In this document: one piece after another, positions 7,503 to 26,043 of the stretch
Position numbering within the stretch: the stretch's first letter is position 1
Layout: the number at the start of each line of letters is the position of its first letter
Translations under genes and position numbers: made by a program
The notes under the pieces: generated by a model
The model's database searches: none
Told to the model about the DNA's origin: nothing
What the model saw: the letters and a program-made list of their open reading frames with translations, nothing else
DNA from: Thermoplasmata archaeon
Lineage (GTDB): Archaea; Thermoplasmatota; Thermoplasmata; Lutacidiplasmatales; UBA184
NCBI GenBank assembly: GCA_021826685.1
Contig: JAKAYT010000010.1
Span: 1-38,571, forward strand
Direction of reading: 5' to 3'
DNA: 38,571 bases

Positions 7503-7517
7503 TTTCCCTCCCGGTCG

Positions 7518-10618: not shown

Positions 10619-10941
10619 CCGGACCCCGGGGAGAACCGCGTTCTTGGGTCCTCGTGCGCCAGGGTCCGCTCGCGTCGGAAGAGCGAGCGGTTCTCGCCTC
10701 CCTACGACTCGCCGCCGAGGCAGACCACCACGACCTCGTCACGGTCCTGCTCGGCACGGCGAGCTACGATGCAGAATCGTCCGACCCCGCGGTCGCTCGG
10801 AGCGGTGAGGAATGGGTCCTCGAAGACGACGCGAACGGGCGAGGGATCCGCCGCTCGACCGGCCGCCCGGGCCGCACGGTCTCGTACGATGAGCTCGTAG
10901 AAGCGATCATGACCGCGGAGCGGGTGATTCAGCTACCATGA
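10615..10941 (+). CDS. DsrH/TusB-like or DsrE-fold protein, third member of the trio
   Basis: This 108-residue protein starts at GTG 10615, overlapping the previous stop. WVLVRQGPLASEERAVLASL is followed by an acidic middle and a C-terminal TVSYDELVEAIMTAERVIQL, which resembles the YDELVE end of small archaeal DsrE-fold proteins. Its place after DsrE- and DsrF-like genes suggests the DsrH/TusB slot. It contains no Cys, whereas Allochromatium DsrH has a conserved one. The stop overlaps the start of the next gene (ATGA). The assignment rests mainly on order and the C-terminal segment. Confidence 0.6.
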   Translation: MTGPRGEPRSWVLVRQGPLASEERAVLASLRLAAEADHHDLVTVLLGTASYDAESSDPAVARSGEEWVLEDDANGRGIRRSTGRPGRTVSYDELVEAIMTAERVIQLP

Positions 10942-11639
10942 ACGGGGACCGTCCGGGAGTCTTCCTGCCGCTTCCCATGCACTCTGGCGATCCTGCTGCC
11001 CCGGGAGACCGGGCTCCGACCCGCTCTCCCGTGAAGATCCGCGTTGTCTACGTGCTCTACCGGGATCCAAACCCGCTCGAGTTCCCCGACCGACCCGAAA
11101 AGCTGGCCGGACCGCTCTTCCACGCGGCCGGGGTCCTCCTGCGCGAGGACGATGAGTTCCTCGCCCTCGGCGAGATCGCGTTCGCGGAGGAGAACCGTCC
11201 CCTCGCCCAGCGCTACGGAGCGGACCTCTTCCCGGCGTATCGCAACGTCCTAACGATACCGAAAGCGGCCATCATCGTACGATGGGACTTCTCGGAGCCG
11301 TCCGAGGACCGGGGGCCGCCTTCGCCCGACCGGGACTTGATATTGGACAAACGTAAAGCCGAAATAGCCCAGCCGCCTCTCCCCATGCGGGAGAGTCGCA
11401 CGGTGACCGAACAGAACGAACATACCCTCCTCGATGCGCGGGGCCTTTTCTGTCCGATGCCGATCCTCAAGGCGAGCGCGATGATCGAGACGCTGCAACC
11501 CGGGGAGCGACTCGAAGTCCTTGCCGATGACCCTGCGGCTCCTTCGGACTTCGAGGCGTTCTCGAAGCGCACCGGCCATCCGCTGCGAGAGCACAGCGAG
11601 GACTCCGGAACGTATCGATTCGTGCTGGAACACAAGTAG
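10938..11639 (+). CDS. tusA: Unknown N-terminal domain fused to a TusA sulfur carrier domain
   Basis: The 233-residue frame has two parts. Residues 32-120 form an unrecognised, Cys-free domain (KIRVVYVLYRDPNPLEFPD, LLREDDEFLALGEIAFAEEN, LFPAYRNVLTIPKAAII). Residues 162-233 are a TusA domain, with LLDARGLFCPMPILKAS carrying the sulfane-accepting Cys172, then LADDPAAPSDFEAF. Between them is a 40-residue Pro/Asp/Glu-rich linker. TusA hands persulfide sulfur to sHdr or DsrE proteins. The linker DNA contains an AT-rich ATTGGACAAACGT box, and an internal ATG (11385) or GTG (11403) could start a free TusA, so this may be two genes that lost a stop codon between them. The ATGA overlap with the preceding gene supports the start. 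Confidence 0.82.
   Translation: MNGDRPGVFLPLPMHSGDPAAPGDRAPTRSPVKIRVVYVLYRDPNPLEFPDRPEKLAGPLFHAAGVLLREDDEFLALGEIAFAEENRPLAQRYGADLFPAYRNVLTIPKAAIIVRWDFSEPSEDRGPPSPDRDLILDKRKAEIAQPPLPMRESRTVTEQNEHTLLDARGLFCPMPILKASAMIETLQPGERLEVLADDPAAPSDFEAFSKRTGHPLREHSEDSGTYRFVLEHK
11342..11354 (+). promoter_or_regulatory. ATTGGACAAACGT box before the TusA domain
   Basis: This 13-base sequence is identical, and in the same orientation to the gene, to one upstream of shdrC1 (23716-23728). It sits in an AT-rich island (TTGATATTGG) inside an otherwise GC-rich reading frame, 30 nt before the internal ATG at 11385. It could be an internal promoter or an operator for tusA and the downstream genes. It also encodes linker residues, so selection on protein cannot be separated from selection on DNA here. 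Confidence 0.4.
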
Positions 11640-11662
11640 AGTAGGAGGAACAAAACAGAACC

Positions 11663-12118
11663 ATGACGGCGGGAGCAGTGGCGGGACGAGCGACAGAAAC
11701 AGTAGAACGGGCGAAGCAGGAGGGGAAGAAGTCCCTGATCCTCGTGGTGTCGAAGGGAGGGGCGGACATGGCCTATCCGTCCTTGATCCTCGCGACCACC
11801 GCGCGGGCCCTCGGGATGGATGCCCACATGTACTTCACGTTCTGGGGAATGCAACTCCTGACCCCTGAGGGTCGGAAGAAGTCGATGGACGTCTTCCCTC
11901 CGGAGATGCAGAAGGCGATCGCGGCAAAGTTCCCGACCGTCGAGCAATTCATGCAGCAAGCGAAGCAGGCGGGCGTCCACATCCACGCTTGCTCTCCGAC
12001 CATGGACATGTTCGGAATGACGAAGCAGAGCCTCGTGAACGAGGTCGACGACGTCATCGGTGCCAGCACGTATCTCGAGCTCGCGTCGAGGCCCGACGCG
12101 GTCACGCTCTTCATCTAG
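11663..12118 (+). CDS. dsrE3A: DsrE3-type sulfur transfer protein
   Basis: This 151-residue DsrE-family protein has SLILVVSKGGADMAYPSLIL, FTFWGMQLL, and a single Cys110 in HIHACSPTMDMFGMTKQSL, the position of the active Cys in DsrE3A proteins linked to sHdr clusters. In known systems DsrE3A exchanges sulfane sulfur with TusA before delivery to sHdr. A TAGGAGGAAC ribosome-binding site precedes the ATG. It follows the TusA-domain gene by 23 bp. An N-terminal 20-residue helix precedes the core. Assignment to the 3A subgroup rests on context and the ACSPTMDMFG motif. Confidence 0.88.
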   Translation: MTAGAVAGRATETVERAKQEGKKSLILVVSKGGADMAYPSLILATTARALGMDAHMYFTFWGMQLLTPEGRKKSMDVFPPEMQKAIAAKFPTVEQFMQQAKQAGVHIHACSPTMDMFGMTKQSLVNEVDDVIGASTYLELASRPDAVTLFI

Positions 12119-12141
12119 AGCGCGAGCCGGGGAAGGGGTCG

Positions 12142-12573
12142 ATGTCTTCCCCCTCGACTTCTTCCCCCGAACAGATGGCCATTGTCCTCACGGAGAGCGC
12201 TACCGACAAGCTCCTTCCCTTCGCGACGCTCGTGAGCGGGGCGATAGCGATGGGGTTCCGCGTGGACGTCTTCGCGAGCTACTGGGGGTTGAGCGCCTTT
12301 CGTAAGGGGCCGTCCGCCCCGGTAGTGAGCCCAGGGCATGGCGAGCTCGGCGCGCGCCTGGAGCGGTCGTTGACCACGCCGAAGGCCCCCTCTTGGAGAG
12401 GGATCCTGGAGATGGCGAAGTCGCTCGGCGAGCTTCACATTTATGCGTGCTCTCAGTCGATGGAGATTCTCGGATTCCAGAAGGAGGAGCTCGATCCTCT
12501 GGTCGAAAGCGTCACCGGGGTGGCAACGTTCATCGACACCACCCGGTCCGCACAAATTACCTACTTCATATGA
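12142..12573 (+). CDS. Second DsrE3-like sulfur transfer protein
   Basis: This 143-residue paralogue of the preceding protein keeps the FASYWGLSAFRKG strand-helix and YACSQSMEILGF around a single Cys103, aligned with Cys110 of its neighbour, and ends TYFI as the neighbour ends TLFI. Duplication followed by divergence is the simplest reading. The ATG at 12142 is preceded by GGGGAAGGGG. The stop overlaps the start of the next tusA (ATATGA). It may form mixed oligomers with the first copy or serve a different TusA partner. The inserted Pro/Gly-rich loop (residues 56-70) differs between copies. Confidence 0.83.
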   Translation: MSSPSTSSPEQMAIVLTESATDKLLPFATLVSGAIAMGFRVDVFASYWGLSAFRKGPSAPVVSPGHGELGARLERSLTTPKAPSWRGILEMAKSLGELHIYACSQSMEILGFQKEELDPLVESVTGVATFIDTTRSAQITYFI

Positions 12574-12842
12574 CCGGATCCGATGGGCCCCCAACGACGC
12601 CGACCGCCCCGCCTACCCGGATGGTGGTCGATGCCCGAGGGAGCTGGTGTCCGGGCCCTCTGATGGAACTCGTCCGAGTGATCAAAGAGGAGCCCGTCGG
12701 TACTGAATTCGAACTCCTGTCGAGCGACGAGGGGTCCCGAAAAGACATTCCGATCTGGCTCAACAAAGCCGGCCACCAGTTGGTCGAGCTCCGGCCGGAT
12801 TCTGGGTTCGACCGGTTCATTGTCCGCAAAACGCATGAGTGA
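12570..12842 (+). CDS. tusA: TusA-family sulfur carrier protein (second copy)
   Basis: This 90-residue TusA-fold protein has MVVDARGSWCPGPLMELVR, in which the Cys of the CPxP motif accepts sulfur, then LLSSDEGSRKDIPIWLNKAGHQLVEL, the usual second half. A proline/threonine-rich leader of about 16 residues precedes the domain. It starts with an ATG overlapping the stop of the preceding DsrE-like gene, so the two are probably made in step as a carrier pair. The CPGP tetrapeptide and the SDEGSRKDI loop differ from the first TusA (CPMP, DDPAAPSD), suggesting the two carriers have different partners. The stop lies 17 bp before the quinone oxidoreductase start. Confidence 0.88.
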   Translation: MTGSDGPPTTPTAPPTRMVVDARGSWCPGPLMELVRVIKEEPVGTEFELLSSDEGSRKDIPIWLNKAGHQLVELRPDSGFDRFIVRKTHE

Positions 12843-12859
12843 GGAGCGGGAGGAAAACG

Positions 12860-14008
12860 ATGGCAAAACGAGTGGTGATCTTGGGAGGAGGAATCGGCGG
12901 AACTACGGTGGCGAACCGAATTCGCAAGGCGCTCGAGGGCGAGGTCGCAACGGGCCAAGTCCAGCTCGCGCTGATCGACCGGGAGGGGATCCATGCGTAT
13001 CAGCCGGGATACCTCATGGTCGTTTTCGACAAGATGCGGCCGGAAGAAGTCCGACGCGAGGAGGCACGTCTCCTCCACCGATCTATTCAGCTGATCAAGG
13101 GTGAGGTCGAGAAGATCGACTCCCCCGCGAACAAGATCCTGCTCAAGGGCGGTACGGAGGTCGCGTACGACATCCTCGTGGTCGCGAGCGGTTCGGTCAT
13201 CCATCCCGAGCTCATCCCGGGTTTCATCGAGGGAGCGCACAGCTTCTACGATCTCGAGAATGCTCAGAAGCTGCGCACGGCGCTTCACGGCTTCACGGGA
13301 GGGAAGATCGTCGTCTCGGTTGCGGGCATGCCCTACAAGTGCCCGGTCGCTCCGCTGGAGGTCACGTTCCTGCTCGACGACTACCTTCGAACGCAGGGAA
13401 TTCGGGACAAGACCGAGATTCACTATACCTACCCCATCCCGAAGGTCTTTGGGATCGACACGGTCGCGCAGCCGATGCAGCGCCTCATGAGCGAGCGCGG
13501 CATCCAGATCCACGTCCCGTTCAACGTCGACAAGATTGACCCTGCGGGGAAGACGATCAAGGGCGTCGAGGGGGACGTGCTGCCCTACGATCTGCTCATT
13601 GCCATACCCCCGCACCGCGGGGCCGACTTCGTCGGGGCGTCGGGGCTCGGCGATAAGGGCAACTGGATCCCGACCGACCGCTACCTGCTGCGGGCCGAAG
13701 GCAAGCAGAACATCTTCGTCCTCGGGGATGCGACCAACATCCCGATCTCCAAGGCCGGCTCGACGGCGGACTACGAGGCCGAGACCGTGACGCAGAACGT
13801 TGCGGCCCTGGCCCGCGGCGAAGCCCCGACGTCCCGCTACGAGGGGCGGGTCTATTGCTGGATCCTGACCGGGCTCGCACAGGCGACGTACATCAAATTC
13901 GACTATCTCCACCCCCCGCACCCTCCGACCCCCTCGTTCGCGCACTACTGGAACAAAGTGATCTACAACCGTACGTACTGGGACCTCACCGCCCGGGCGC
14001 TGTTCTAG
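12860..14008 (+). CDS. sqr: Sulfide:quinone oxidoreductase-like FAD flavoprotein
   Basis: This 382-residue two-dinucleotide-binding flavoprotein has VVILGGGIGGTTVANRI at the N-terminus, a second ATG-like region near VVASGS (residues 107-112) and FVLGDATNIPISKAGS for FAD. Only two cysteines occur, Cys161 in PYKCPVAP and Cys333 in VYCWILTG. They align with the pair that bridges the polysulfide in sulfide:quinone oxidoreductases; the third Cys of some types is absent. The C-terminal aromatic segment (HYWNKVIYNRTYWDLTARALF region) suits membrane docking. GGGAGGAAAACG precedes ATG 12860, so the slightly longer open frame is not used. It would inject sulfide electrons into quinone and make polysulfide. 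An NADH dehydrogenase-like function is the main alternative. Confidence 0.85.
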   Translation: MAKRVVILGGGIGGTTVANRIRKALEGEVATGQVQLALIDREGIHAYQPGYLMVVFDKMRPEEVRREEARLLHRSIQLIKGEVEKIDSPANKILLKGGTEVAYDILVVASGSVIHPELIPGFIEGAHSFYDLENAQKLRTALHGFTGGKIVVSVAGMPYKCPVAPLEVTFLLDDYLRTQGIRDKTEIHYTYPIPKVFGIDTVAQPMQRLMSERGIQIHVPFNVDKIDPAGKTIKGVEGDVLPYDLLIAIPPHRGADFVGASGLGDKGNWIPTDRYLLRAEGKQNIFVLGDATNIPISKAGSTADYEAETVTQNVAALARGEAPTSRYEGRVYCWILTGLAQATYIKFDYLHPPHPPTPSFAHYWNKVIYNRTYWDLTARALF

Positions 14009-14018
14009 GAGGAACATC

Positions 14019-14717
14019 ATGCCGGCGTCCCCCCCCTCCGCGCCGCCTTCGGCGGCCTCGCCCCCGACGCCCTCCACCGCCGACTCGCTCGCCGCGCTCC
14101 AGACTCTCGGAGAGCGCCTCGCGCGCTGGCAATCCGACGGAACGCTTGAGAGGCTCTTTTCGCTCGCCGAAGGCGCGGTCGGGATTTCGGACGCGGTCAC
14201 GGACCGTATGCTTGAGTCCGCGGGCACGACCCTCGTCGGAGCCCTGTCTCTACTCGACTGGATCTCCCAGGACGAGCGGCGGCGGGACGCGGTGCTGTTC
14301 CTCATAGACCGGCTCGCCGAGTGGAAGGAGACGGGAGCTCTGGACACCATCGTCACGCTCGCCGAAGGCGCGGTCGGCGTCGCCCAGGCGACCACCGATC
14401 AGATGGTCGCCCACGCCGGCGCTTCCGCGGTCGGCTGGATACAGTTCGTCGAGTCGCTGCCTCCCAAGGAGGAGATCGAGCCCTTGGTCCGCGCCGCCGT
14501 GCGCGCCGGCCCGGTCCTCGGAACCCTGGCCGAGTCCACTTCGGGACTCGGCGACCCGGCCGCGCGGGAGAAGGCGCTCGCCGAGGTCCCGAACATCTCG
14601 GGGGTATTCGCCCTCGGTCGTGCCCTGCGGGACCCGGAGACGCAGCGCGGGCTTCAGGCGATCCTGCTCCTCCTGAAGCAGCTGGGCCGGTCGTGGGGCG
14701 CCGCTCCACCGCGCTAG
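14019..14717 (+). CDS. DUF1641 domain protein with an internal duplication
   Basis: This 232-residue helical protein ends DPETQRGLQAILLLLKQLGR, the DUF1641 signature. The family sits beside sulfide:quinone oxidoreductase-like or formate dehydrogenase genes and probably tethers or stabilises the flavoprotein; no enzymatic role is known. Two copies of one unit are visible, beginning LARWQSDGTLERL at residue 34 and LAEWKETGALDTI at residue 99, each followed by AEGAVG, a 65-residue period. The first 22 residues are Pro/Ser/Ala-rich and probably disordered. AGGAGGAACATC precedes the ATG, 10 bp after the flavoprotein stop, so co-translation is likely. Confidence 0.83.
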   Translation: MPASPPSAPPSAASPPTPSTADSLAALQTLGERLARWQSDGTLERLFSLAEGAVGISDAVTDRMLESAGTTLVGALSLLDWISQDERRRDAVLFLIDRLAEWKETGALDTIVTLAEGAVGVAQATTDQMVAHAGASAVGWIQFVESLPPKEEIEPLVRAAVRAGPVLGTLAESTSGLGDPAAREKALAEVPNISGVFALGRALRDPETQRGLQAILLLLKQLGRSWGAAPPR

Positions 14718-14721
14718 GGCG

Positions 14722-15108
14722 ATGGCCCCAGTTTCATTTCCTCCATCGGGCGATCGGCCTCCCGCGTGCCGCATCGGCCCGGACCTTTGGTACCGGCGCG
14801 AACCGGATGGAACGTACGTCATCGGGCTCACCGAGGAGGCCCAACGGCGGGCGGGGCGCCTCGCGCAGTACCGGGGACCCGAGCCGGGCCGTACGTACCT
14901 GCGCGACGAGACCGTGGCCTCGATGGAGTCGGAGAAGTGGGTCGGTCACTTGGCGCTCCCCGTAGATGGAACGGTCGTGGAGACCAACCCGGTGGTGGAA
15001 ACCGACCCGGGGACCATCAACCGCGACCCCTACGGCACGGGCTGGCTCTACCGAGTGCGACCGCGCACCCCGGGACTGCTCGAAGCGGGGACCGAGGGCA
15101 CCGGGTGA
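14722..15108 (+). CDS. lbpA1: Lipoate-binding protein LbpA1 (GcvH-like)
   Basis: LbpA proteins are GcvH-like carriers whose lipoyl arm serves sHdr-type sulfur oxidation. In these 128 residues VASMESEKWVGHLALPVDG holds the lipoylated Lys72, and VVETDPGTINRDPYGTGWLYRV is the conserved C-terminal hairpin (DPY-G-GW). The N-terminal NGCxFPED motif of typical LbpA is missing and is replaced by a Pro-rich leader with one Cys16. It begins 4 bp after the DUF1641 stop, and its stop overlaps the ligase start (GTGA). A second, more canonical LbpA lies at 17699-18148. The glycine cleavage system is an alternative, but no gcvT or gcvP is present. Confidence 0.88.
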   Translation: MAPVSFPPSGDRPPACRIGPDLWYRREPDGTYVIGLTEEAQRRAGRLAQYRGPEPGRTYLRDETVASMESEKWVGHLALPVDGTVVETNPVVETDPGTINRDPYGTGWLYRVRPRTPGLLEAGTEGTG

Positions 15109-16142
15109 GCGGGCCGGTCCCGGACGGATCGTCGCCCTTCCGTCCCGAACTTCCCGTCTGGCGCAGGATCGACCTCGGTCGTTGCTCGCCGCTGAGAGCC
15201 CAGACGTTCGTCGAAAGCGTCGCTCAGTTCGTCGGGGCCGGCGAGGTGCCCAACACCCTGTTGTTCGCCCGGCCGGATTCCCCGTACGTCTCCTTGGGAT
15301 TCCATCAGTCCTTCGCCGAGGAGGTCGACCCGCAGTTCGTTGCCCGTCGCCGGATCCCGGTGATCCGACGGGTCGAGGGAGGGGGAACGACCTGGCTCGA
15401 CTCGGACCAGTGGTTCTACCAGCTCGTGTACCGCGACGAAGGGGCCGGAGGGCCCGGGGACCTCGCTCGCTTCTTGCGTCCCGTCGCCGAGGCGGCGAGG
15501 GGGCTAGGGCTGACTCTTACGGTGCGTCCACCGAGCGATCTGGTCGTAGGAGAGCGGAAGATTTCGGGCAACGCGGGCGGCGACTGGGACGGTGCCCACA
15601 TCCTCGTTGGAGGGATCCTGGGTCGGGCGGACCGGCAGAACATGGCGGACCTATTACGACTCCCGCATCCCGGAATCCGTCCGATCGTGCGTGCCGAACT
15701 CGCGCGATGGGTCACCTCCTGGGTCGACGAGACCGGACATCTCCCCGAATGGACGGCGTTCGCCGACGCGGTCACGACGGCGTTCGGCGCGGCGGGCCTC
15801 TTTGGCACGCGCTCCGCCGATCCGTCCGAGGCCGAGGAGGCGCACTTCCGCCGGGAAACGGTGGCCCGCCACCAAGCGACGACATGGCGCGAGCTCCCCC
15901 CACTACCGCGAACGGCGAGCTCCGTGGAGCGGCGACTGCGGGTGGCCGGCCCGCACGGGATCCTCGTTCTTGCAGGACCGGGGTCGGAGGAGCGCCGTAT
16001 CGCGATCGTGGACGGCGCCGTGGTACGCGCCGGTTACGCGCTCGGCCCGTCACTCGAAGCGGTCGCTCGGCCCCTTCCCCGGGAGTCTTCCGAGCTCGCG
16101 GAGCTGGCGACGGCCGTGCGCTCGATCACGGGGTTCGACTAG
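15105..16142 (+). CDS. lplA: Lipoate-protein ligase (LplA/LipM family), copy 1
   Basis: The LPL/BPL catalytic domain shows FARPDSPYVSLGFHQSFAEE, then VIRRVEGGGTTWLDSD (the RRxxGGG lipoyl-AMP loop) and VGERKISGNAG with the catalytic Lys. The C-terminal region from about residue 275 (RLRVAGPHGILVLAGPG) looks like an LplB-type accessory domain in the same chain, giving 345 residues. It would activate lipoate or octanoate and attach it to LbpA1, whose gene overlaps it by four bases. The stop lies inside the end of the convergent second ligase (17-bp overlap). No lipoyl synthase gene is in the window, so the cofactor must come from enzymes encoded elsewhere or from uptake. Confidence 0.88.
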   Translation: MSGPVPDGSSPFRPELPVWRRIDLGRCSPLRAQTFVESVAQFVGAGEVPNTLLFARPDSPYVSLGFHQSFAEEVDPQFVARRRIPVIRRVEGGGTTWLDSDQWFYQLVYRDEGAGGPGDLARFLRPVAEAARGLGLTLTVRPPSDLVVGERKISGNAGGDWDGAHILVGGILGRADRQNMADLLRLPHPGIRPIVRAELARWVTSWVDETGHLPEWTAFADAVTTAFGAAGLFGTRSADPSEAEEAHFRRETVARHQATTWRELPPLPRTASSVERRLRVAGPHGILVLAGPGSEERRIAIVDGAVVRAGYALGPSLEAVARPLPRESSELAELATAVRSITGFD

Positions 16143-17262
16143 CGGTCGTAGGCGCGAGCTCTGCGGCGGCCAGGATCGAAGCTGCGAGGTCGGCGGCCGT
16201 CGCACCGACCAGCTCGACGCGGTTCTGGCTGAGCCAGCCCGCGACGGACTCCCGGAGCGAATGCTCATCGAGGATCTGGTCCGCGAGGCTTCGTTCGAGG
16301 TCCGCGAGCGGCGCGTCAAACGGCATCGTGAAGAAGTCGCCCGAGATCTCGACCTCCTTCACCCGGCCGCCGCCGTGCAAGAGCGTGATGCGAACAAGCT
16401 TTGCGGCCTTGCGATCGTACCGGGCGAGGAAGGTGTCGTGCGCGATCTTGAGTGCCCGTCCCTCGTACGGGGCGCCCGACAGGCCCGGGTGGGAGCGATC
16501 CTTCCGGTACGTCCAGTCGTCCCGGGTTCGTGAGATTTTGAGCTCGGCCAGGGACTCCGCCTCCTCCGCGGTCAGCGCGCCGGGTACCCACGAGACCCCC
16601 AGCGATCGCGCGAACTCCTCTCGCAGGGTTTGAGCGACGAACCCCCGCTCGGGAAGGCGACCGGTCTCGGCGCGGATCGATGTGAGCCACTGGGACATCC
16701 CGCTCGCGAGCTTCCCGCGGAATTTCTCGTCCGGGACCCGTAAGACCCGGCTCATCGCGGGGACGTCGAGGTCGAGCAAGAGGTCCCCCACCAGTATCCA
16801 CGACCCGTGCAGTTGCATGGCCCCGTTCGCGCTCAGCTTCCGGCCGCGGGAGGTGAGGTCGTTGATGCCGGCTCGCTCCGCGGCGACACCGAGCCTACGT
16901 AGCGCGGCCGCGACGGGCGCGAGGTGCCGCTCGTAGAAGGCGGCAACCCCCCCGTCGGTGCCCGGAGCGCCGGGCGGGAGCACGAGCATGTAGTCGAGCT
17001 CCCACGGGCCGTCGAGAATCGCCCCCCCGCCGACGGCCCGACGGACGACCGGGATCCCTTGGGCGCGGCAGTAGGCGAGGTCGAGCTCCCGCTCGGCCTC
17101 CTGATGGTAGCCGACGTTCGCGAACGGACGTTCCGGGTAGAGGACGAGAGCCGTCGGGGGCGAACGGCCGGCGGCAACGGGCCGAGCGAGGGCGACGAAC
17201 ACGTTGACCATCGTGGCGCCGTCGACCGCTCCGAGGTCGAGCCAGCGCCACGCCGCGCTCAC
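16126..17262 (-). CDS. lplA: Lipoate-protein ligase (LplA-LplB type), copy 2
   Basis: This 378-residue ligase has RPFANVGYHQEAERELD, VVRRAVGGGAILDG (RRxxGGG loop) and GRKLSANGAM with the catalytic Lys. The segment from about residue 270 (ALKIAHDTFLARYDRKA, EVEISGDFFTMPFDAPLADL) is a clear LplB accessory domain. Fused LplA-LplB ligases, called sLpl(AB), lipoylate LbpA in sHdr organisms. It is the last gene of the minus-strand sHdr run, after LbpA2 and a DsrE-family gene. The start is GTG 17262; the gap to the DsrE stop is 21 bp. It differs substantially from copy 1, so this is not a recent duplication. Confidence 0.88.
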   Translation of the reverse strand: MSAAWRWLDLGAVDGATMVNVFVALARPVAAGRSPPTALVLYPERPFANVGYHQEAERELDLAYCRAQGIPVVRRAVGGGAILDGPWELDYMLVLPPGAPGTDGGVAAFYERHLAPVAAALRRLGVAAERAGINDLTSRGRKLSANGAMQLHGSWILVGDLLLDLDVPAMSRVLRVPDEKFRGKLASGMSQWLTSIRAETGRLPERGFVAQTLREEFARSLGVSWVPGALTAEEAESLAELKISRTRDDWTYRKDRSHPGLSGAPYEGRALKIAHDTFLARYDRKAAKLVRITLLHGGGRVKEVEISGDFFTMPFDAPLADLERSLADQILDEHSLRESVAGWLSQNRVELVGATAADLAASILAAAELAPTTASRTP

Positions 17263-17283
17263 CGTCCCCTCGGTTTCGAATCG

Positions 17284-17676
17284 CTAGAAGGAGATGACCG
17301 AGTCCGCGTCGAGCGCGAGGTCGGCGAGCGTCGCCGAACCGACGAGCTTGACGCCGTCAATGAGGTCGGTCGGCGGAATGTCGCAGAGGTCGCGGCAGCT
17401 CTCCGCGCACGCCAGGAACTTGACGCCGTTCTCGCGCGCCATGTCGATGAACATCTTCAGGTTTCCCCCCTTCTTGAGAGGGACGGATTCGGCCCCTCCC
17501 TTGCGAAGGAGCTCGGGCGCGTGCATCAAGAAGTACATCGTCGTGTCGATCTCCATGGCGGCCATGAGCGCCGCGGTGTAGAACGGGGCGTACGTCTTGT
17601 CGGGGTCCTCCGGCCCGGTCGTCATTATCATCAGAATCTTCTTCCCGGCGGGGTCCGCCGGCGTGCTCGCGCTCAT
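17284..17676 (-). CDS. DsrE-family protein of the sHdr operon (DsrE3B-like)
   Basis: This 130-residue DsrE-fold protein starts KKILMIMTTGPEDPDKTYAP and ends ATLADLALDADSVISF. Three cysteines cluster in FLACAESCRDLCDI (90, 94, 98); the first is in the position of the active Cys of DsrE-family persulfide carriers. The Tyr/Pro-rich first loop (DKTYAPFYTAALMAAMEID) is typical of the subgroup found beside sHdr genes. ATG 17676 is the likely start; the open frame extends upstream into lbpA2 in another frame. The gap to lbpA2 is 22 bp. It probably shuttles sulfur to or from the sHdr complex with LbpA2. Confidence 0.85.
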   Translation of the reverse strand: MSASTPADPAGKKILMIMTTGPEDPDKTYAPFYTAALMAAMEIDTTMYFLMHAPELLRKGGAESVPLKKGGNLKMFIDMARENGVKFLACAESCRDLCDIPPTDLIDGVKLVGSATLADLALDADSVISF

Positions 17677-17698
17677 CGTTCGCTGCCTCCGAAACGCC

Positions 17699-18148
17699 TC
17701 AGGTTTGGCACCGCATACAACGGATGTTGTCCTTCTCCAGGATCTCTTTGAAACGCGCGAGCGCCGCTTCGCCCCGGAGCAGCGACCCAATTTCGCTCGG
17801 ATCGGACGCGGTCATCGCCACTATCCACCCTCGGCCGTAGGGGTCGGTATTGAGGAGCCCGGGGTCCTGCTCGACCTCCGCGTTCGCCGCGATCACGGTG
17901 CCCGTCACCGGTGCCATCACCGGGCCCGCCCACTTGCCGCTCTCGACCGTCGCGATCGGTTTCCCGCGTTCCCGCGGAGTGCCCGCCGCCTTAATCCGAA
18001 CGTGGAGGATTTTGCCCGCCCGGGTCTGCGCCGGATCGGTAAGGCCGACCCACAGGCGATCTCCCTCGACTTTGACCCAGGTCATCTGGGTACGCTCAAT
18101 GAAGTAGGCACGGTCGTCCGGGAATTCGCAGCCGTTCAGAATCGCCAT
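17699..18148 (-). CDS. lbpA2: Lipoate-binding protein LbpA2, canonical sHdr type
   Basis: The N-terminal NGCEFPDDRAYFIERTQMTW is the LbpA hallmark that separates it from GcvH. Lys72 in ATVESGKWAGPV is the lipoylation site, and LLNTDPYGRGWIVAMT completes the fold. The 149-residue protein has a C-terminal extension ending RCMRCQT, a CxxC pair (144, 147). ATG 18148 is preceded by TAGGAGGATAACG, one of the best ribosome-binding sites here; an upstream start (MPRRIT) is not needed. It directly follows shdrB2 by 10 bp, the classical order. The lipoyl arm is thought to carry the sulfur substrate or intermediate that sHdr oxidises. Confidence 0.93.
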   Translation of the reverse strand: MAILNGCEFPDDRAYFIERTQMTWVKVEGDRLWVGLTDPAQTRAGKILHVRIKAAGTPRERGKPIATVESGKWAGPVMAPVTGTVIAANAEVEQDPGLLNTDPYGRGWIVAMTASDPSEIGSLLRGEAALARFKEILEKDNIRCMRCQT

Positions 18149-18158
18149 CGTTATCCTC

Positions 18159-19094
18159 CTAGGCAAAACCTCGCGAGCGCAAGAAGAGGTCGGGTCGCGA
18201 GAAATTGTCCCGGAGTCGAGCCTCGGCCACGCTAGCGCCGAACGCGAGGCTCATGAGCTGGGTGAAGTACACCACCGGACGCAGTACTTCCTCGCCGTAC
18301 GCGGCACGGATCCGATCCAGGTGGTTCTCGATGTTGATTTGGCCCAGCGGGCAGATGGTGGCGACCAGATCGGCACCCGCGCGACGAGCCTCGTTGAGGA
18401 TCGACGCGCTAAACGCGACCGCAACATCGAGGTCGCTCAGCGCGTGACCACCGCCACAGCAGATCGTCTTCGCCGAGAAGTCGGTGAGGACCTTCGCTCC
18501 GCACGCCTCGAGCAGTTCGTCCAGAAAATGCGGATGCTCCGGGTCATCGGCCCCCGGCGTTCTGCCGGCCCCGGTGTAACGCTTCGGCCGAGTGTAGAGA
18601 CAGCCGTAGTACGGAGCCACCGTGAGGCCGGTCAATGGTCGTCGCACGGCCGCCCGTACCCGTTCGGGCCCGGCCCGGGTGTGGATGAACTCGAGCACGT
18701 GTTGGACCGATGCTTCGCCGTCGTACGTTGGCGCTCCTCCTTCCTCCAGGGTCGCGTTGATGCGGCCGCGGGTCGCCGGCTCGCGGACCGCGTCGTTGGC
18801 CCGCGCGAGCGAATAGACGCAACCGTTGCAGGCCGCCACGACCTGGTGGCGCCCCATCGACCGGGCGAGCGCGAGGTTGCGGGCGGGGAGAGCGACCGAG
18901 ACGTCCTGGCTCAGGTTCTTGACCTCCGTCGCGCCGCAACAGTTGTAGTCAACGATCCGATCGAGCGAAAGGCCGAGTCGACGGAGCACCTGCTGGGCGG
19001 TGACCTCGTAGGCCTTCCCGAGCCCATCGAGCGAACAACCCGGATAGTACGCCGGAACGCTATCCGTCGGCCCGCGCGAGACGCCGGCGCTCAC
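18159..19094 (-). CDS. shdrB2: sHdrB2, heterodisulfide reductase-like subunit B
   Basis: This 311-residue subunit has two CCG domains: Cys20 (YYPGCSLDG), Cys52-53 (YNCCGATE), and Cys89 and Cys92 (CNGCVYSL), then YYGCLYTRP, TICCGGGHAL and ICPLGQINIE. In HdrB such cysteines bind noncubane [4Fe-4S] clusters, where disulfide chemistry occurs. GTG 19094 overlaps the shdrC2 stop (GTGA), which fixes the start; the longer frame lies over the end of shdrC2. It belongs to the C1-B1-A-hyp-C2-B2 order of bacterial and archaeal sulfur-oxidising Hdr-like operons. Sequence and context make the methanogen-type role unlikely. Confidence 0.93.
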   Translation of the reverse strand: MSAGVSRGPTDSVPAYYPGCSLDGLGKAYEVTAQQVLRRLGLSLDRIVDYNCCGATEVKNLSQDVSVALPARNLALARSMGRHQVVAACNGCVYSLARANDAVREPATRGRINATLEEGGAPTYDGEASVQHVLEFIHTRAGPERVRAAVRRPLTGLTVAPYYGCLYTRPKRYTGAGRTPGADDPEHPHFLDELLEACGAKVLTDFSAKTICCGGGHALSDLDVAVAFSASILNEARRAGADLVATICPLGQINIENHLDRIRAAYGEEVLRPVVYFTQLMSLAFGASVAEARLRDNFSRPDLFLRSRGFA

Positions 19095-19768
19095 GGGGAG
19101 TGCCCTCCCCTTCCTCCCGCAGCGCTCAGCGATGCGCGCCGGCGGCGTTCGTCCTCCTTCAGCTTCTCGCGCAGCACGTTCCCGAACTGTCGCCATCCGC
19201 GAGTCCGGTGGGCGAGAGGCCCGGTTCGGAGCCGGCCGCTCCGCAGCAGCTGGAAGCCCATCTTGAGCATCTCGCCCGCCGGCATCGTCCTCCCTTCCAA
19301 GCGTTCGTACGTCCGGAACAGGCTCGCTTCGTCGAGGACCCCCCGGCGAAGCAGGTTCTCCGTGTAGGCCCGGTCGAACCGGTCGGCCGGGCTCTCAGGG
19401 GCGCCGCCGGTGAATTCGAGATAGCTTCCGATCGTGTGGATGACCTCTTCGACTTTGACGCCCTTCGGACAGCGCTCGACGCACTTGTTGCACGAGACGC
19501 AGCGCCAGATCGTAGTAGCGTACTTCCGCAGTTCCTCCTCGTAACCGACCTGGGCGAGGTAGATGAAGTAACGCGGATTGAACTCGTTTAACCCATAATC
19601 GGTGTGAAGGCAACAGCCGGCCGTGCACGTCCCGCACTGCCAGCAGCGCGAGATCGTGTCGCCCTGAGGCTGGCTGCGGACCCAGTCGAGGATCCGCACG
19701 TCGAGGTCCGTCTGGACGCGCGAGCGCAGGAACGTGTTCCAGTCACCGGAGACGTCGATCCCCTCCAT
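19091..19768 (-). CDS. shdrC2: sHdrC2, heterodisulfide reductase-like iron-sulfur subunit
   Basis: Two cubane [4Fe-4S] motifs are present: RCWQCGTCTAGC (Cys42, 45, 48, 52) and RCVSCNKCVERC (90, 93, 96, 100). HdrC subunits wire electrons between HdrA and HdrB. The 225-residue reading starts at ATG 19768 (MEGIDVSGDW). A TTG at 19822, 10 nt after a GGAGG and overlapping the end of hyp, would add 18 residues and may be the true start. The basic C-terminal third (about residue 150 on) is helical and variable. The stop overlaps shdrB2. The open frame continues far upstream over hyp, but that part is antisense-like Arg/Ser-rich sequence. Confidence 0.9.
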   Translation of the reverse strand: MEGIDVSGDWNTFLRSRVQTDLDVRILDWVRSQPQGDTISRCWQCGTCTAGCCLHTDYGLNEFNPRYFIYLAQVGYEEELRKYATTIWRCVSCNKCVERCPKGVKVEEVIHTIGSYLEFTGGAPESPADRFDRAYTENLLRRGVLDEASLFRTYERLEGRTMPAGEMLKMGFQLLRSGRLRTGPLAHRTRGWRQFGNVLREKLKEDERRRRASLSAAGGRGGHSP

Positions 19769-19808: not shown

Positions 19809-20546
19809 TCAACGATCGGCAAGGGTAGGGCGCCTCCGGACGCCGAGTAGCATCGTCGCGAGAGGGAACGGACCCGGAAGGAGACGCTCGATGCCGCCTC
19901 CCTGGAAACTTCGGTCGGTCGCCTCCCCCAGGCGGCCCGCGTAACTGAGGGCGAGGAGCACGTCGACCCCGGCGAACGTTTGCGAGGGGAAACCGAGCGC
20001 ACCGAGCTGGAGCCGAATCTCGCCGAGCCGTGCCTGGGTCGCCGCGTAGCTTTCGGGGTCGGACCCCCCGAACGCCGCGAGGATCCCGGTCCGCCGTGCC
20101 GGGTTCCATACCCAACGCGCGAGGAGAGCGATCCGGTCGGGGGCGGCGGCGTGGAGGAGCTCGCTCGCGAGGTCGATCCCCACGTCGGCCGGTGCGCCGT
20201 CGAACCTCCGGGCTACCGCCGGAAGGTCCGACGGGCCCAACCGACCCCCGTGCGCATCCCGCAGGATGGCGCGCACGGCCGCAGGGTCGGTCCGTGCGAC
20301 GAGGTCTGCGCGCCACGGGCGGGTCGAAACGACCCCGCCGAGAACCGACCGGAACGCCGCGGGGAATCGGTCCGCCGGGAGGCGTTCGAGCTCGCGCACG
20401 GCGGCTAGTTTCGCCTCGACCGATGCCTCGAGGCGGTTGACTTCGCCCACCCCGCACGGCAGCACGCGCTCCCGGAATTCTTGCGCGACGCGGCTAGGGT
20501 CCGCTCCGGTAGAGCGAATCGTCCGTGAGGTTTCAGTTGCGAGCAT
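19809..20546 (-). CDS. Conserved hypothetical protein of the sHdr operon (hyp)
   Basis: This 245-residue protein has no named domain. Its position, between shdrA and shdrC2, is that of the conserved hyp gene in shdrC1B1A-hyp-C2B2 operons, so it is probably a subunit or assembly factor of the complex. The N-terminal VLPCGVGEVNRLEASVEAKL, with its only Cys, looks conserved, followed by a mostly helical body rich in Ala, Leu and Arg. The last part reads like a domain with hydrophobic GPFPLATMLLG. It starts with an ATG inside the end of shdrA (14-nt overlap) and ends within the region where shdrC2 begins. It has no signal peptide. Confidence 0.82.
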   Translation of the reverse strand: MLATETSRTIRSTGADPSRVAQEFRERVLPCGVGEVNRLEASVEAKLAAVRELERLPADRFPAAFRSVLGGVVSTRPWRADLVARTDPAAVRAILRDAHGGRLGPSDLPAVARRFDGAPADVGIDLASELLHAAAPDRIALLARWVWNPARRTGILAAFGGSDPESYAATQARLGEIRLQLGALGFPSQTFAGVDVLLALSYAGRLGEATDRSFQGGGIERLLPGPFPLATMLLGVRRRPTLADR

Positions 20547-21570
20547 ATTGGTATGCGCGGAGGGCCGCGCCCATCCCCTCGGTCACGGAGTCAGGGATCG
20601 CCTTCGGCCCGGTCGCCGCGCCCGCGAGGAACACGCCGGGCAGCCCGGAGTCGACGGGGTTCATGTCCGAGAGATTCGGGGTGAGGAACCCCTCGGGGCC
20701 GACGGGGACGCCGAAGAGGGCGGCCGCCTCTTGGGTCCCGGTGCCGGGCTCCATGCCGCTCGCGAGGACGATCATATCGAACGGAACCTCCGTCGGGCGG
20801 CGGAGGATCGTATCCTCTCCGGTCGCGAGCAGTTGGGAGCCTCCCTCGGCGATCGTCACCTGACCAATGCGTCCCCGGATGAACTTGACCCCGTACTCTT
20901 GCATCGACTTCCAGTAGAGGTCCTCCCACAGGCCGTAGGTCCGAATGTCCATGTAGTAGACGTATGCGTCGATCTCGGGATGCTTCTGCCGGATCTCGAC
21001 CGCCTGCTTGATGCTCACCGCGCATCCCATTCGGCAGCACCAAGGGTTCCCGACTTGGAGATCCCGGGACCCCACGCAAAGGATCCAGGCAATTCGTCGG
21101 GGCGGTTTACCGTCGGACGGACGGAGCACCCGGTCGTCATGGATCATCCCTTCGAGTTCCTTGAAGTCAAGAACGTCCGGGTAGCGGCCGTATCCGTACT
21201 CGAACTTGCGCCGAGAATCGAAATGGTCGAAGCCGGTCGCCAGGACCACGGCACTGACCTCCTGGGTCTCGAGCGCATCGCCGGTCTTCAGCGTGACGCG
21301 GAACCCTTTCGGAAGGCGCTCCGCTTTCGTAACGGTCGTCGATCGATGGAGCTCGACCCTCGGATTTCCCTCGACCTTGGCGATCAACGGCCCGAGAATC
21401 TCGTCCGACGGGCGCAGGTCCGGAGCCAGGAGCGAGTAGTGCCAGCGCTTCGGGTTGCCTCCGAGGTAGGCCTCCCGCTCGACCAAGATCGTCGGCGCAC
21501 CGAGCTCCGCGATCTCCGCCGCCGCGCTCAAGCCGGCCGGACCGGCTCCGAGCACGAGGATCGGATTCAC
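20533..21570 (-). CDS. shdrA: sHdrA, flavin subunit of the Hdr-like sulfur-oxidising complex
   Basis: This 345-residue sHdrA binds FAD through NPILVLGAGPAGLSAAAEI and a second GAATGPKAIPDSVTEGMG region. A [4Fe-4S] site is formed by Cys165, 178, 179 and 183 (ILCVGS, NPWCCRMGCAVS). It lacks the extra ferredoxin domains of methanogen HdrA, as expected for the sulfur-oxidising form. GTG 21570 overlaps the shdrB1 stop (GTGA), so the 511-residue open frame is far too long. In the known system the complex oxidises sulfur bound to LbpA or a carrier and releases sulfite; the physiological electron acceptor of sHdrA is still debated. Confidence 0.94.
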   Translation of the reverse strand: MNPILVLGAGPAGLSAAAEIAELGAPTILVEREAYLGGNPKRWHYSLLAPDLRPSDEILGPLIAKVEGNPRVELHRSTTVTKAERLPKGFRVTLKTGDALETQEVSAVVLATGFDHFDSRRKFEYGYGRYPDVLDFKELEGMIHDDRVLRPSDGKPPRRIAWILCVGSRDLQVGNPWCCRMGCAVSIKQAVEIRQKHPEIDAYVYYMDIRTYGLWEDLYWKSMQEYGVKFIRGRIGQVTIAEGGSQLLATGEDTILRRPTEVPFDMIVLASGMEPGTGTQEAAALFGVPVGPEGFLTPNLSDMNPVDSGLPGVFLAGAATGPKAIPDSVTEGMGAALRAYQYARN

Positions 21571-22853
21571 CGAGAACGCCCCCCCGCGCCGGCGGGGGCA
21601 GCCGGAGCCTCGTCCGGAAGGACTTGGCCCTTGTTGATCGCGAAGTACGTCTCGATTTCCCCGTGGGCAGGGTGGAGCAGTTCGGGCGCCTGACCGTTCT
21701 TGAGCGCCTGAAGATACTCCCGGAACTCGGCCTTCGCCGCCTTCCAATCGATACCCATCTTCGTCATCAACGCCTCCGCCGAGGCCGCATGCCAGTGGAC
21801 CTGGGCGATCTTGTACGGATGCGCTCCCATCGCGAGTGCCGCGAACTGTACATCGGAGAGTACGGGGAGCATGTACGGGAGCCCGTGGGCCTTCCCGATC
21901 CATTGGCTCTTGTCGAGCGTGGTCACGCAACCCGTGTCGCTCGTGATGGCGACATCCGCGTGCGCCTCTTCGACCATCGGGCGGATCTTCCGTAGGTTCG
22001 CGAACGACCGGCTGAACTCGCGCTCGCTCAGGATGTGACGGAAACCAAACCCGCAGCAGTCGTACCACGTTGAGTAATCGGCGACCTTGGCCCCGAGCGC
22101 CATAAGTATCCCCGAGGGGACGGCCGGCCGCTGCCCGGCATAGATGGCCTCATCGTAGACGGCGTCCTCGGGCACCATCTTGTAGTAGTGGCAGGGTTCG
22201 TGCACGGTCGCGACGATTCCCTCGACCGTGTGCTTTTGGCGGGCCAAGATCTCGGGCGCCATGACGTGGACCCACTCGGAGTAGTGGACGATCTCTTCCG
22301 GCAGCACCAGCTCGCGGCCCATCTTCCCCAAGACGTCGCGGACCTTCGCGCGAACCGTCGCGTTCTCGACGAGGAGTTTGCGCATCTCCTTGTAGTCCCC
22401 GTAGCTGGTTCCGCAGTGGATGAGGGGAAAGTGACCCGTTTCGTAGGCGCGGTGGAAGTTTCGGGCGGCTACGGCGGCCAGAGCGACCGGGTTCGAAGTG
22501 GCCGTCCCGTGGTAATTCCATGCTGTACAGGAAGTCTGGTGCGGCTCGTTGAGGTACGTGCGGCCGGTCTCGTTCATCAGCCAAAGCAGAGAGGAGGGGT
22601 AGCCGGGGATGTTGCCGCACTGTCCGCATGACTTGTGATGCCAGAGTCGGTCGGTAGGGATCCGCTTTTTCCATCCGAAGAGTGTGGAAACCTCGACGGG
22701 CCGATTCTCCGGACGGATCCGATGGATGACGATCTCGCCGGCGGCCTCCAAGCGTTCCATCTCCTCGCGGACGTCGACCACCTTCTTCCCGGTGCCCTTC
22801 TGATGCTGGTTCCTCTCTTGGACGACCTTGCGGATTTCGTTTGCGCTCAACAT
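21567..22853 (-). CDS. shdrB1: sHdrB1, heterodisulfide reductase-like subunit B (long form)
   Basis: The 428-residue length and the leader through FGWKKRIPTDRLWHHKSCGQCG identify the long sHdrB1 type. CCG-domain cysteines appear in TSCTAWNYHGT, HCGTSYGDY, HEPCHYYKM, WYDCCGFGFRH and SDTGCVTTLDKSQW, which should hold noncubane clusters. The C-terminal tail (PAAPAGAGGRS) is Ala/Gly/Pro-rich. It starts at ATG 22853, 10 bp after shdrC1, and overlaps shdrA at its end. It and sHdrB2 differ in length and sequence, as in other sHdr operons, implying two distinct active sites or one catalytic and one electron-transfer role. Confidence 0.94.
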   Translation of the reverse strand: MLSANEIRKVVQERNQHQKGTGKKVVDVREEMERLEAAGEIVIHRIRPENRPVEVSTLFGWKKRIPTDRLWHHKSCGQCGNIPGYPSSLLWLMNETGRTYLNEPHQTSCTAWNYHGTATSNPVALAAVAARNFHRAYETGHFPLIHCGTSYGDYKEMRKLLVENATVRAKVRDVLGKMGRELVLPEEIVHYSEWVHVMAPEILARQKHTVEGIVATVHEPCHYYKMVPEDAVYDEAIYAGQRPAVPSGILMALGAKVADYSTWYDCCGFGFRHILSEREFSRSFANLRKIRPMVEEAHADVAITSDTGCVTTLDKSQWIGKAHGLPYMLPVLSDVQFAALAMGAHPYKIAQVHWHAASAEALMTKMGIDWKAAKAEFREYLQALKNGQAPELLHPAHGEIETYFAINKGQVLPDEAPAAPAGAGGRSR

Positions 22854-22863
22854 GGACAGTCCC

Positions 22864-23700
22864 CTATCCCCGGAACGTGGCCACCGGGCCGCGCATACCT
22901 TCGAGCTCTGTCCGGAACCGTTCTCGGGCCTCTTCGAACTCCTCGCGTCGCTCCTCGATGATATCGATCAGCATTTCCGTAAGGTCGGGATCGAGGCCCC
23001 GAAGCATGTCGAGGACGCCGGTCTCCTCGTAGATTCGGAACAGCTCGAGGGATGTCTGTACCGAGACCTCCCATGACGATCGGGTCGTCTGCAGGACGTC
23101 CGAGGGGATCGCCCGGCGCATGATGTCGGCCCCGACGCCCCACGCCCGGTCGGAGCCCGTTGCGAACGGCCCCCAGTCCCGGAAGAAATCCGGCTGGATC
23201 ATATCGGACGAGACCTGCGTCCCGACCGTCATCAACAGCGTGAGCGATCGCCCAAAGGGCGCGAGGGTCTTGCGGGTCGAGGCAACCCCGTGGGAGACCG
23301 AGAGCTCGCGCATGACGCTGATGATCCCGGCGATGTCGTTGCCAAAGCGGCAGCGCATGTTGCAGGTGTAACACTGGCAGCATGCCCAGATCTTCTCCTG
23401 GAGGGCGTCCCAGAGGGTCGTCGCGTCGCCGGTCTCTGCGATCTGAAGCATCTCGCGAGGGGAGAAGTCGTAGAATCGGGCCGCCGGACATCCGGTCGTA
23501 CATTCCCCGCAGTTGAGGCAGCCAAGGACGAACTCGTGGTAGCGCGGATCGGCGTGAAACTCCCTGAAGATCGTCTCCGAGAGCGCGCGCTCCTCGGGTG
23601 AGGCACGACGGCGGCCGGTCAGCTCCATCGCGGGCGGCGCCGCCGACTCTTCCTCAGTGAGGGTGAGCGCACGTTGCGGAAGATGGGCGACGATGGTCAT
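22864..23700 (-). CDS. shdrC1: sHdrC1, first gene of the sHdr operon
   Basis: Two cubane cluster motifs are seen: GCLNCGECTTGC (Cys61, 64, 67, 71) and ACCQCYTCNMRC (Cys107, 110, 113, 117, with an extra Cys108). The 278 residues exceed most HdrC proteins because of an N-terminal leader of about 50 residues and a long acidic C-terminal helix (IIEERREEFEEARERF). The start is ATG 23700; an internal ATG at residue 25 is an alternative. The ATTGGACAAACGT box ends 15 nt before the start, about where a TATA box would sit for a leaderless transcript. It opens the C1-B1-A-hyp-C2-B2-lbpA run. Confidence 0.93.
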   Translation of the reverse strand: MTIVAHLPQRALTLTEEESAAPPAMELTGRRRASPEERALSETIFREFHADPRYHEFVLGCLNCGECTTGCPAARFYDFSPREMLQIAETGDATTLWDALQEKIWACCQCYTCNMRCRFGNDIAGIISVMRELSVSHGVASTRKTLAPFGRSLTLLMTVGTQVSSDMIQPDFFRDWGPFATGSDRAWGVGADIMRRAIPSDVLQTTRSSWEVSVQTSLELFRIYEETGVLDMLRGLDPDLTEMLIDIIEERREEFEEARERFRTELEGMRGPVATFRG

Positions 23701-24876: not shown

Positions 24877-26043
24877 TTATTCGGTGATGAGTACGTCGCC
24901 TCGAGCGAGGACTCGATAGACCTCCGGCCGCAGGAGTTCCTTGGGAAGCGCCTCGCCCTTCGCGATCGCCGTACGGATTCGGGTCTGGCTCGTGTCGAGG
25001 CGGGATGACACCGGGTGCGTGCACGTCCGGGCCGTCGCCATCCAACCGCAATCCTTGCAAAAGAACGTCTCTTCGTATCGTACCGGTACGACGTCGATCG
25101 GATACTCGTCGAAGATCCGCTGGCAGGCGAAAGGTTCGTAGTACTTTCCGATGCCGGCTTGGTCCCGTCCCACGATATAGTGGCTGCAGCCGAAGTTCTT
25201 ACGGATGATCGCGAGGAAGAGGGCTGCTTTGGGACCCCCATACCGCATCGTGATGCTCAAAGCGGCGAGCAGGACCCGATGGGCGGGATAGTAGTTCTGA
25301 ATGAGCGCCTGGTAGGCTTCGGCGATGACCGCCGGCCGGTAGTCGCCCTTCTTGAGACGCCCGAGGACCGGATGCACGAACAGCCCATCGATCTCTTCCC
25401 GCTCGAGCGTGCACCGCTGAAGGTACTCATGAGCGGTATGCGGCACGTTGCGGGTCTGGTAGGCCGCGACGTTGGACCAACCTCGTCGCGCGAACTCATC
25501 CCGGACCTCCGCGGGAGTCTTTTCCAGCGGGCCCGTGGGGAGCTCCAGCCGTCGCAGGAGTACCAAGGGACCCGCGAGGGCAACTTCACCCTGGGCCTGA
25601 AGGTCCGCGACATTCGGATGTTGCGGATCCGTCGTTCCGTACACCTGCTCGGCGACTCGGTGCCGGTCGTAGCGGAACTTCTCCTCGACTCGGACGATGG
25701 CGAACAGGCGCCCCGACGGGTCCGTGAGGCCCACTTCGTCCCCCGCCCGCACCGACTCCACGACGCGGAGGTTCTCCTTCCCCGTAGGTGCGAGCAGGAT
25801 TGGGATCGTCCACGGGAGACCGTCCGGTAGGCGACCCCGCTCCACCACCGCCTCGACGGCTTCCTTTCCCTGGAAACCGTCCAGCGGACTGTAGGCGCCG
25901 ATCCCGATCTTCTCCGCATCGTAGATCGCATCGATGAACGGGGAGAGCGTTAGGAGGTCGCGGGACTCCGACTCGCGTCGTTGTCGCTCGGACGGCGTGC
26001 TCTCACGGTTGATGAGCCGCCCGCCGTGAGGTAGAGGAATCAC
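24877..26043 (-). CDS. sat: ATP sulfurylase (sulfate adenylyltransferase)
   Basis: Sat here probably converts APS + pyrophosphate to ATP + sulfate, the last oxidation step after AprBA. The 388 residues contain [17 protein letters not shown] (196-207 active-site QTRN and H-x-x-H) and [12 protein letters not shown] (GRDxAG at 292-297, with Gln where His is usual). A C-terminal FFCKDCG and TARTCTH form a probable zinc site (Cys329, 332, 341, His343), as in some prokaryotic Sat proteins. The GTG at 26043 is chosen over the longer frame because the upstream residues are unlike Sat and a TTAAT box lies about 26 nt before it. No APS kinase domain is fused. Confidence 0.95.

Follow-up and report, generated by a model that had tools for sequence, protein, structure and literature searches.

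A probable second lipoyl-carrier module, LbpA1 and lig1, in the sHdr-LbpA sulfur-oxidation locus of a Thermoplasmata lineage

We analyzed contig JAKAYT010000010.1 of a Thermoplasmata archaeon (assembly GCA_021826685.1, here genome G000; 1.39 Mb, 90% complete), a stretch of 38,571 nucleotides with a GC content of 66.5% that is referred to as the window (contig C43 of G000). The closest named relatives of G000 are uncultured Thermoplasmata metagenome-assembled genomes (MAGs), with Candidatus Sysuiplasma in a sister family. The window is a Thermoplasmata sulfur-oxidation locus with genes for AprAB, Sat, DsrE/TusA, SQR and sHdr, and it encodes two GcvH-like lipoyl carriers, LbpA1 and LbpA2, together with two lipoate-protein ligases, lig1 and lig2. 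Our analysis of the sequences suggests, with a probability of about 0.55, that the sHdr-LbpA system of this lineage gained a second, self-contained lipoyl-carrier module made up of LbpA1 and lig1. The genes lie in the middle of the window, where LbpA1-lig1 on the forward strand and lig2-DsrE-LbpA2 on the reverse strand face each other tail to tail:

14722..15108, forward strand: LbpA1, a GcvH-like lipoyl carrier of 128 amino acids without a C-terminal cysteine tail, with Lys72 in the motif ESEKW
15105..16142, forward strand: lig1, an LplA-type lipoate-protein ligase with no LplB domain recognised by profile
16126..17262, reverse strand: lig2, an Lpl(AB)-type lipoate-protein ligase with a recognisable LplB domain
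17284..17676, reverse strand: DsrE-family sulfurtransferase (PF02635, E 8.1e-15), between lig2 and LbpA2, a placement kept in relatives
17699..18148, reverse strand: LbpA2, 149 amino acids, CxxC-tail type, with NGCEFP, Lys72 in ESGKW and the tail RCMRCQT

The preliminary description of this DNA had given coordinates, motifs (ESEKW, ESGKW, NGCEFP and the CxxC tail) and a 17-bp ligase overlap that were all correct, and the Lys72 that it reported for both carriers is present in the window sequences. Its placement of LbpA2 in the sHdr run with ligase 2 also stands, except that the DsrE gene between the two had been omitted.

The GTG start codon of lig1 overlaps the stop codon of LbpA1 as GTGA, and this coupling, as GTGA or TTGA, is kept in 14 of 17 distinct loci. 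LbpA1 and lig1 are found together in every locus that has either, and both are absent from genome G033 and from the Sysuiplasma family. Co-variation was measured in 14 genomes, with correction for species distance by HdrA/HdrB1 distances: the partial r was 0.47 for LbpA1-lig1 (p 0.008), 0.19 for LbpA1-lig2 and 0.24 for LbpA2-lig2 (p 0.08). The genomes are few and neighbouring genes share rates, and we regard the co-variation evidence as suggestive only. The codon overlap, the joint presence and absence and the co-variation bear out the earlier claim that LbpA1 is coupled to ligase 1. LbpA1 and lig1 form one translationally coupled module that is tied to sHdr.

The link to sHdr was seen in a survey of 103 family genomes in which HdrB2 served as the marker for sHdr. 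lig1 was present in 18 of the 21 genomes with HdrB2 versus 2 of the 82 without it (Fisher p 4e-15, uncorrected for kinship). In one of the latter two, G071, the contig ends in HdrA; the other, G027, is 78% complete and its contig ends in lig1. G004 was considered as a case of LbpA1-lig1 without sHdr and rejected, its HdrB2 lying on another contig of a fragmented assembly; G091 and G027 were too fragmented to count as ligase losses. Among 300 genomes of the class, full-length lig1 was found only in this family.

The facing arrangement was found in more than 12 genomes from four genera, and this recurrence places it beyond chance; it was read in G000, G001, G007 and the MAG contigs L097, L098 and L100-L107. 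In G022 the LbpA1-lig1 half and the lig2-LbpA2 half lie about 17 kb apart. The operon context of LbpA1-lig1 is kept across genera, and in L216 and L217, which represent two other genera, the pair directly follows DsrE without SQR genes, so that the module travels with the DsrE/TusA delivery genes. The tails of lig1 and lig2 overlap at 16126-16142, exactly 17 bp. The spacing in relatives ranges from this overlap to a 486-bp gap, a 4-bp overlap being the commonest, and a function for the 17-bp overlap was rejected because its length varies.

Both carriers match Pfam GCV_H (E 1.5e-26 and 2.9e-34). LbpAs are recognised by two cysteines, one close to each terminus, that GcvH lacks, and the definers of the family allow some archaeal exceptions. 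In LbpA2, C7 and the tail C144 are invariant, as is K72, across 8 Thermoplasmata homologues; the protein is encoded with the sHdr genes, adjoins HdrB1 and occurs in every intact sHdr locus read, which LbpA1 does not. The lipoyl-lysine of LbpA1 is present in all 16 distinct homologues read, none of which has a C-terminal cysteine, the protein ending after the barrel; an N-terminal cysteine is found in most and is missing from three. LbpA1 lacks the cysteine pair and has the genetic linkage to sHdr. Its structural model (pLDDT 85.8) is closest to the solved GcvH 1onl (TM 0.80) and has Lys72 at the hairpin that joins strands 64-70 and 74-78.

In the bacterial loci read, one LbpA of a pair usually ends in a CxxC-like tail (CMRCT, CFRCE) and the other has only one cysteine in its tail (KCG, SCxE), and in Aquificae the CxxC-tail LbpA lies after HdrB1 and before DsrE. 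Because LbpA2 of the window has the same place and tail, it corresponds by position to the published LbpA1, an assignment that rests on gene order. The labels used here are those of the preliminary description and differ from the published LbpA1 and LbpA2. Having no tail cysteine and ending after the barrel, LbpA1 of the window falls in neither bacterial tail class and is a third kind. A lone CxxC-tail LbpA was also seen in acid-site bacteria related to SZUA-79 and Acididesulfobacter (L118-L128, L135, L138, L140, L146, L153, L164), where the flanks read (up to 8 kb) contained no recognisable sHdr gene.

Both ligases match Pfam LplA-B_cat (E 2.9e-24 and 3.5e-31) and have intact RR-x-x-GGG and catalytic-lysine motifs; RR-x-x-GGG and RK-x-SGN are kept in 15/15 aligned lig1 sequences. 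The lig1 model (pLDDT 90.8) is nearest to Thermoplasma acidophilum LplA (3r07_A, TM 0.84 by target). LplB profiles gave no match in the C-terminus of lig1, where the model has a confident small beta/alpha domain. The LplB domain of lig2 was recognised at E 7.5e-9, significant though below the NCBIfam cut-off, and the lig2 profile matches T. acidophilum LplB (3r07_C, E 5.3e-12). LipB, LipM and LipL have a conserved cysteine in the region after the catalytic lysine, unlike lig1. A Cys-type octanoyltransferase or amidotransferase was rejected for lig1, since no cysteine is conserved after its catalytic lysine and the real LipB is encoded on contig C10.

The phylogeny proposed as a check in the preliminary description recovered two LbpA clades and two ligase clades, all well supported. 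LbpA1 (100/100), Thermoplasmata LbpA2 (100/94) and GcvH (100/100) form separate clades in the LbpA tree, and lig1 and lig2 (each 100/100) do so in the ligase tree. As each ligase clade is deep and fully supported, a recent tandem duplication of the ligase was rejected.

Several observations weigh against the acquisition of a self-contained module. Approximately unbiased (AU) tests rejected no alternative placement (LbpA1 with GcvH, p 0.40; with LbpA2, 0.42; with the fusion protein described below, 0.16). The first value, together with GcvH as the nearest solved fold, would suit an LbpA1 that acts as an H-protein of the GcvH type, in glycine cleavage or as a lipoyl relay, and whose place in a sulfur locus is incidental. 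We consider this highly improbable. A GcvH search of G000 returned four loci, namely LbpA1, LbpA2, a true GcvH on contig C18 and a GcvH-TusA fusion on contig C37. The C18 protein, in its own clade, passes both NCBIfam GcvH cut-offs and LbpA1 fails them (equivalog cut-off 115.85 bits; C18 GcvH 146.4, window LbpAs 66.7 and 83.8); gcvT lies on contig C44, and lig1 tracks sHdr. LbpA1 was rejected as the GcvH of the genome on the strength of this separate GcvH and gcvT. The preliminary description had held that an LbpA grouping with true GcvH, with a gcvTP system elsewhere, would speak against its proposal: the GcvH clade is separate and gcvT is encoded elsewhere, but sisterhood of LbpA1 and GcvH is still allowed by the AU test.

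LbpA1 has also diverged fast (mean distance 1.56 versus 0.39 for LbpA2), which fits relaxed constraint as well. With the loss in G033 and the N-terminal cysteine missing from three homologues, this could mark LbpA1-lig1 as a decaying remnant of little function. The open frames, the lipoyl-lysine in all homologues read, the ligase motifs in all aligned lig1 and the occurrence in four genera make such decay very hard to credit.

A further difficulty is the partial r of 0.60 between lig1 and lig2, above that of either ligase with its own carrier, which could reflect joint work or merely a shared local rate. This co-variation would agree with lig1 being a transferase or assistant that moves the acyl group from lipoyl-AMP or LbpA2 to LbpA1 while lig2 performs ATP activation. 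The lig1 C-terminus is unrecognised by LplB models and that of lig2 is recognised, and ligases without LplB have repeatedly become transferases (PMC10332631). We judge such a role improbable in view of the confident C-terminal domain in the lig1 model and the lack of a conserved cysteine after the catalytic lysine; the Thioalkalivibrio ligase, too, was believed to be without the small domain, yet adenylates (PMC6067878).

The genome of a congener, G032, bears on the same question and also counts against a strict pairing. It keeps LbpA1, lig1 and LbpA2 and lacks lig2, with lig1 abutting DsrE inside the contig, and no other lig2 or LplB match was found anywhere in its assembly. Judging from this gene content, lig1 can probably modify LbpA2 there, or something else does. 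G032 argues against a transferase role and for overlap between the ligases. G033, another congener, and the Sysuiplasma family show a different pattern, having LbpA2 and lig2 but lacking both LbpA1 and lig1; in G033, lig2 directly adjoins a DUF1641 gene in the interior of a contig of 96 kb. Together these patterns indicate that LbpA1-lig1 is one unit and that LbpA2 does not strictly need lig2, with the reservation that MAGs are incomplete. The G032 locus (L047) is reduced, with no SQR, DUF1641 or neighbouring DsrE gene beside LbpA1, and in its LbpA2 the tail CxxC has become CTRG, with loss of the second cysteine.

These losses could also mean that the second pair serves only to supply more lipoylated carrier, with both LbpAs doing the same job and either ligase acting on both. 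G032 runs on lig1 only, and G033 and the Sysuiplasma family on lig2 and LbpA2 only. The single Thioalkalivibrio ligase modifies both LbpAs, and duplication for dosage has been proposed (PMC6067878). Redundancy of this kind is possible but on the whole unlikely: the C-terminal cysteine and tail are absent from LbpA1 family-wide, LbpA1 forms its own clade, and its partner is lig1 rather than lig2. The dedication of the ligases is not strict, however. The preliminary description had assigned a dedicated ligase to each LbpA; of this, the pairing of LbpA1 with lig1 remains, and exclusivity is weakened by G032 and by the Thioalkalivibrio ligase.

The lipoate inventory of G000 includes a lipoyl synthase LipA (347 bits, cut-off 310) and four members of the ligase family: LipB on C10, which adjoins 2-oxoacid dehydrogenase E1, E2 and E3 genes, lig1, lig2 and a distant member on C60. 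The genome search for LipS1/LipS2 suggested in the preliminary description found neither in this 90% complete genome, with no BioB-like protein among the 13 of 15 radical-SAM matches read; LipA and LipB are present instead. As LipS1/S2 were found in 88.6% of sHdr archaea in a published survey (PMC10332631), G000 is a minority set-up in this respect. The C60 protein (L052 9804-10676, reverse strand) has no NCBIfam match, occurs in congeners with and without sHdr, and its catalytic-lysine motif appears altered (VHGRVVGG).

For the acquired module, we propose that lig2, with its LplB domain, would attach octanoate or lipoate to LbpA2 and that lig1 would do so for LbpA1, with overlap between them. 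LipA would complete the cofactor, as LipS1/LipS2 were not found. Less surely, LbpA2 may be the core carrier at the Hdr complex, as its CxxC tail and the neighbouring HdrB1 gene suggest. LbpA1 may serve as an accessory carrier, accepting sulfane sulfur from the DsrE/TusA relay with only its lipoyl arm and passing it on, as suggested by the missing tail and tail cysteine and by the position at the end of the DsrE/TusA/SQR operon. A division between substrate loading and sulfur release is plausible and would fit the gene context, in which LbpA1 ends that operon and LbpA2 lies beside HdrB1.

The GcvH-TusA fusion on C37 (10325-11290, reverse strand; L006, relatives L177-L192) joins an LbpA-type domain to a TusA-like domain. 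In 12/12 aligned sequences the lipoyl-lysine is replaced by Arg, and the N-terminal, tail and TusA cysteines are invariant. The gene faces a rhodanese gene tail to tail in almost every case read and occurs in three Thermoplasmata families, with or without sHdr; its LbpA domain clusters with bacterial single-cysteine LbpAs (96/97). Tentatively, and with considerable doubt, three GcvH-like carriers might be distinguished: LbpA1, using lipoate only and having a ligase of its own, for uptake from DsrE/TusA; LbpA2, using lipoate and CxxC, for Hdr; and a TusA-fused, cysteine-only LbpA without lipoate that also operates without sHdr. If true, this split would show lipoate and cysteine chemistry in LbpA to be separable. 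The fusion merits separate study.

LbpA pairs and LbpA-specific ligases have been published (PMC6067878, PMC10332631). The window shares with the sHdr-LbpA systems of Thioalkalivibrio sp. K90mix, Hyphomicrobium denitrificans and Aquificae, which have LbpA1/LbpA2 and sLpl(AB) (PMC6067878, PMC10332631), the adjoining sHdr, DsrE and LbpA genes, the lipoyl-lysine, an LplA-type ligase in or by the cluster and two LbpAs. In those systems both LbpAs are substrates of the ligase that was studied in vitro, both carriers have tail cysteines and LipS1/LipS2 occur in most. The window has a ligase in each of its facing operons and an LbpA with no tail cysteine, and G000 has LipA, LipS1/LipS2 not being found. 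Group III sHdr clusters of Actinobacteria and Firmicutes (PMC6067878) likewise have EtfAB-type genes near sHdr and two LbpAs, but these are one CxxC-tail and one single-cysteine LbpA in tandem, while those of the window lie in opposite operons and differ in tail chemistry. Candidatus Sysuiplasma and relatives (L048, L049, L111-L117) have orthologous sHdr, LbpA2, DsrE and lig2 in the same order, without LbpA1 or lig1. LplA/LplB of T. acidophilum (3r07, 2ars) belong to the same superfamily and provide the nearest fold to lig1; they are two polypeptides, solved with an E2 lipoyl domain, whereas lig2 is fused and lig1 has no recognisable LplB. What appears to be new is the combination, in Thermoplasmata, of facing operons that each encode a carrier-ligase pair, an LbpA clade without the tail, and LipA in place of LipS1/S2. 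Nothing specific on sHdr in Thermoplasmata or on the GcvH-TusA fusion was found in the open-licence papers covered, which is weak evidence of novelty.

The remaining genes of the locus are as follows:

5664..7964, reverse strand: AprA and AprB (sulfite to APS); aprA TIGR02061 929 bits, cut-off 642; AprB by sequence
10938..14717, forward strand: TusA-domain protein, DsrE proteins, TusA, SQR-like flavoprotein and DUF1641 protein, sulfur-delivery genes ending in LbpA1-lig1
18159..19196, reverse strand: sHdrB1-like subunit (TIGR03288 E 5e-46, below cut-off)
19091..19768, reverse strand: sHdrC1-like subunit
20533..21570, reverse strand: sHdrA-like subunit (HdrA2 model E 3e-70, partial length)
21567..22853, reverse strand: sHdrB2-like subunit, the marker used for sHdr in the family
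22864..23700, reverse strand: sHdrC2-like subunit, by sequence and conserved synteny
24877..26043, reverse strand: Sat, ATP sulfurylase, by sequence; near AprAB in relatives

From these genes (Etf/FixCX-like, AprAB, DsrE, TusA, SQR-like, DUF1641, sHdr and Sat) we infer a sulfide-to-sulfate route. The first gene of the delivery operon (10938-11639, forward strand) fuses a TusA domain in frame to an N-terminal part of about 150 amino acids without a Pfam match, and the two parts match as separate stretches in many relatives (L041, L043, L044). Between HdrA and HdrC1, 19809-20546 (reverse strand) encodes an unknown protein that is conserved in sHdr loci of the class and fast evolving (29-76% identity). 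G033 has, besides the usual AprAB, a second, diverged AprA/AprB pair between HdrC2 and an Lrp-like gene (L044 15908-18150), with 65% and 48% identity to AprA and AprB of the window.

Many sHdr sulfur oxidizers have two LbpAs; the founding study left this unexplained and found no conserved cysteine that separates its LbpA1 from its LbpA2 (PMC6067878). In the window it is precisely the cysteine tail that sets the two LbpAs apart; both carriers are encoded together with a ligase, and a carrier-ligase pair or a single ligase has been lost in relatives. Experiments on small soluble proteins could therefore address why there are two LbpAs, by showing which of them takes sulfur from DsrE/TusA, which one reacts with sHdr, and how the ligases are matched to the carriers. 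Through this locus a complete route from sulfide to sulfate can be inferred for Thermoplasmata from acidic mine sites, and, as a known sulfur oxidizer loads both carriers with one enzyme, this lineage offers a natural test of the purpose of a second carrier.

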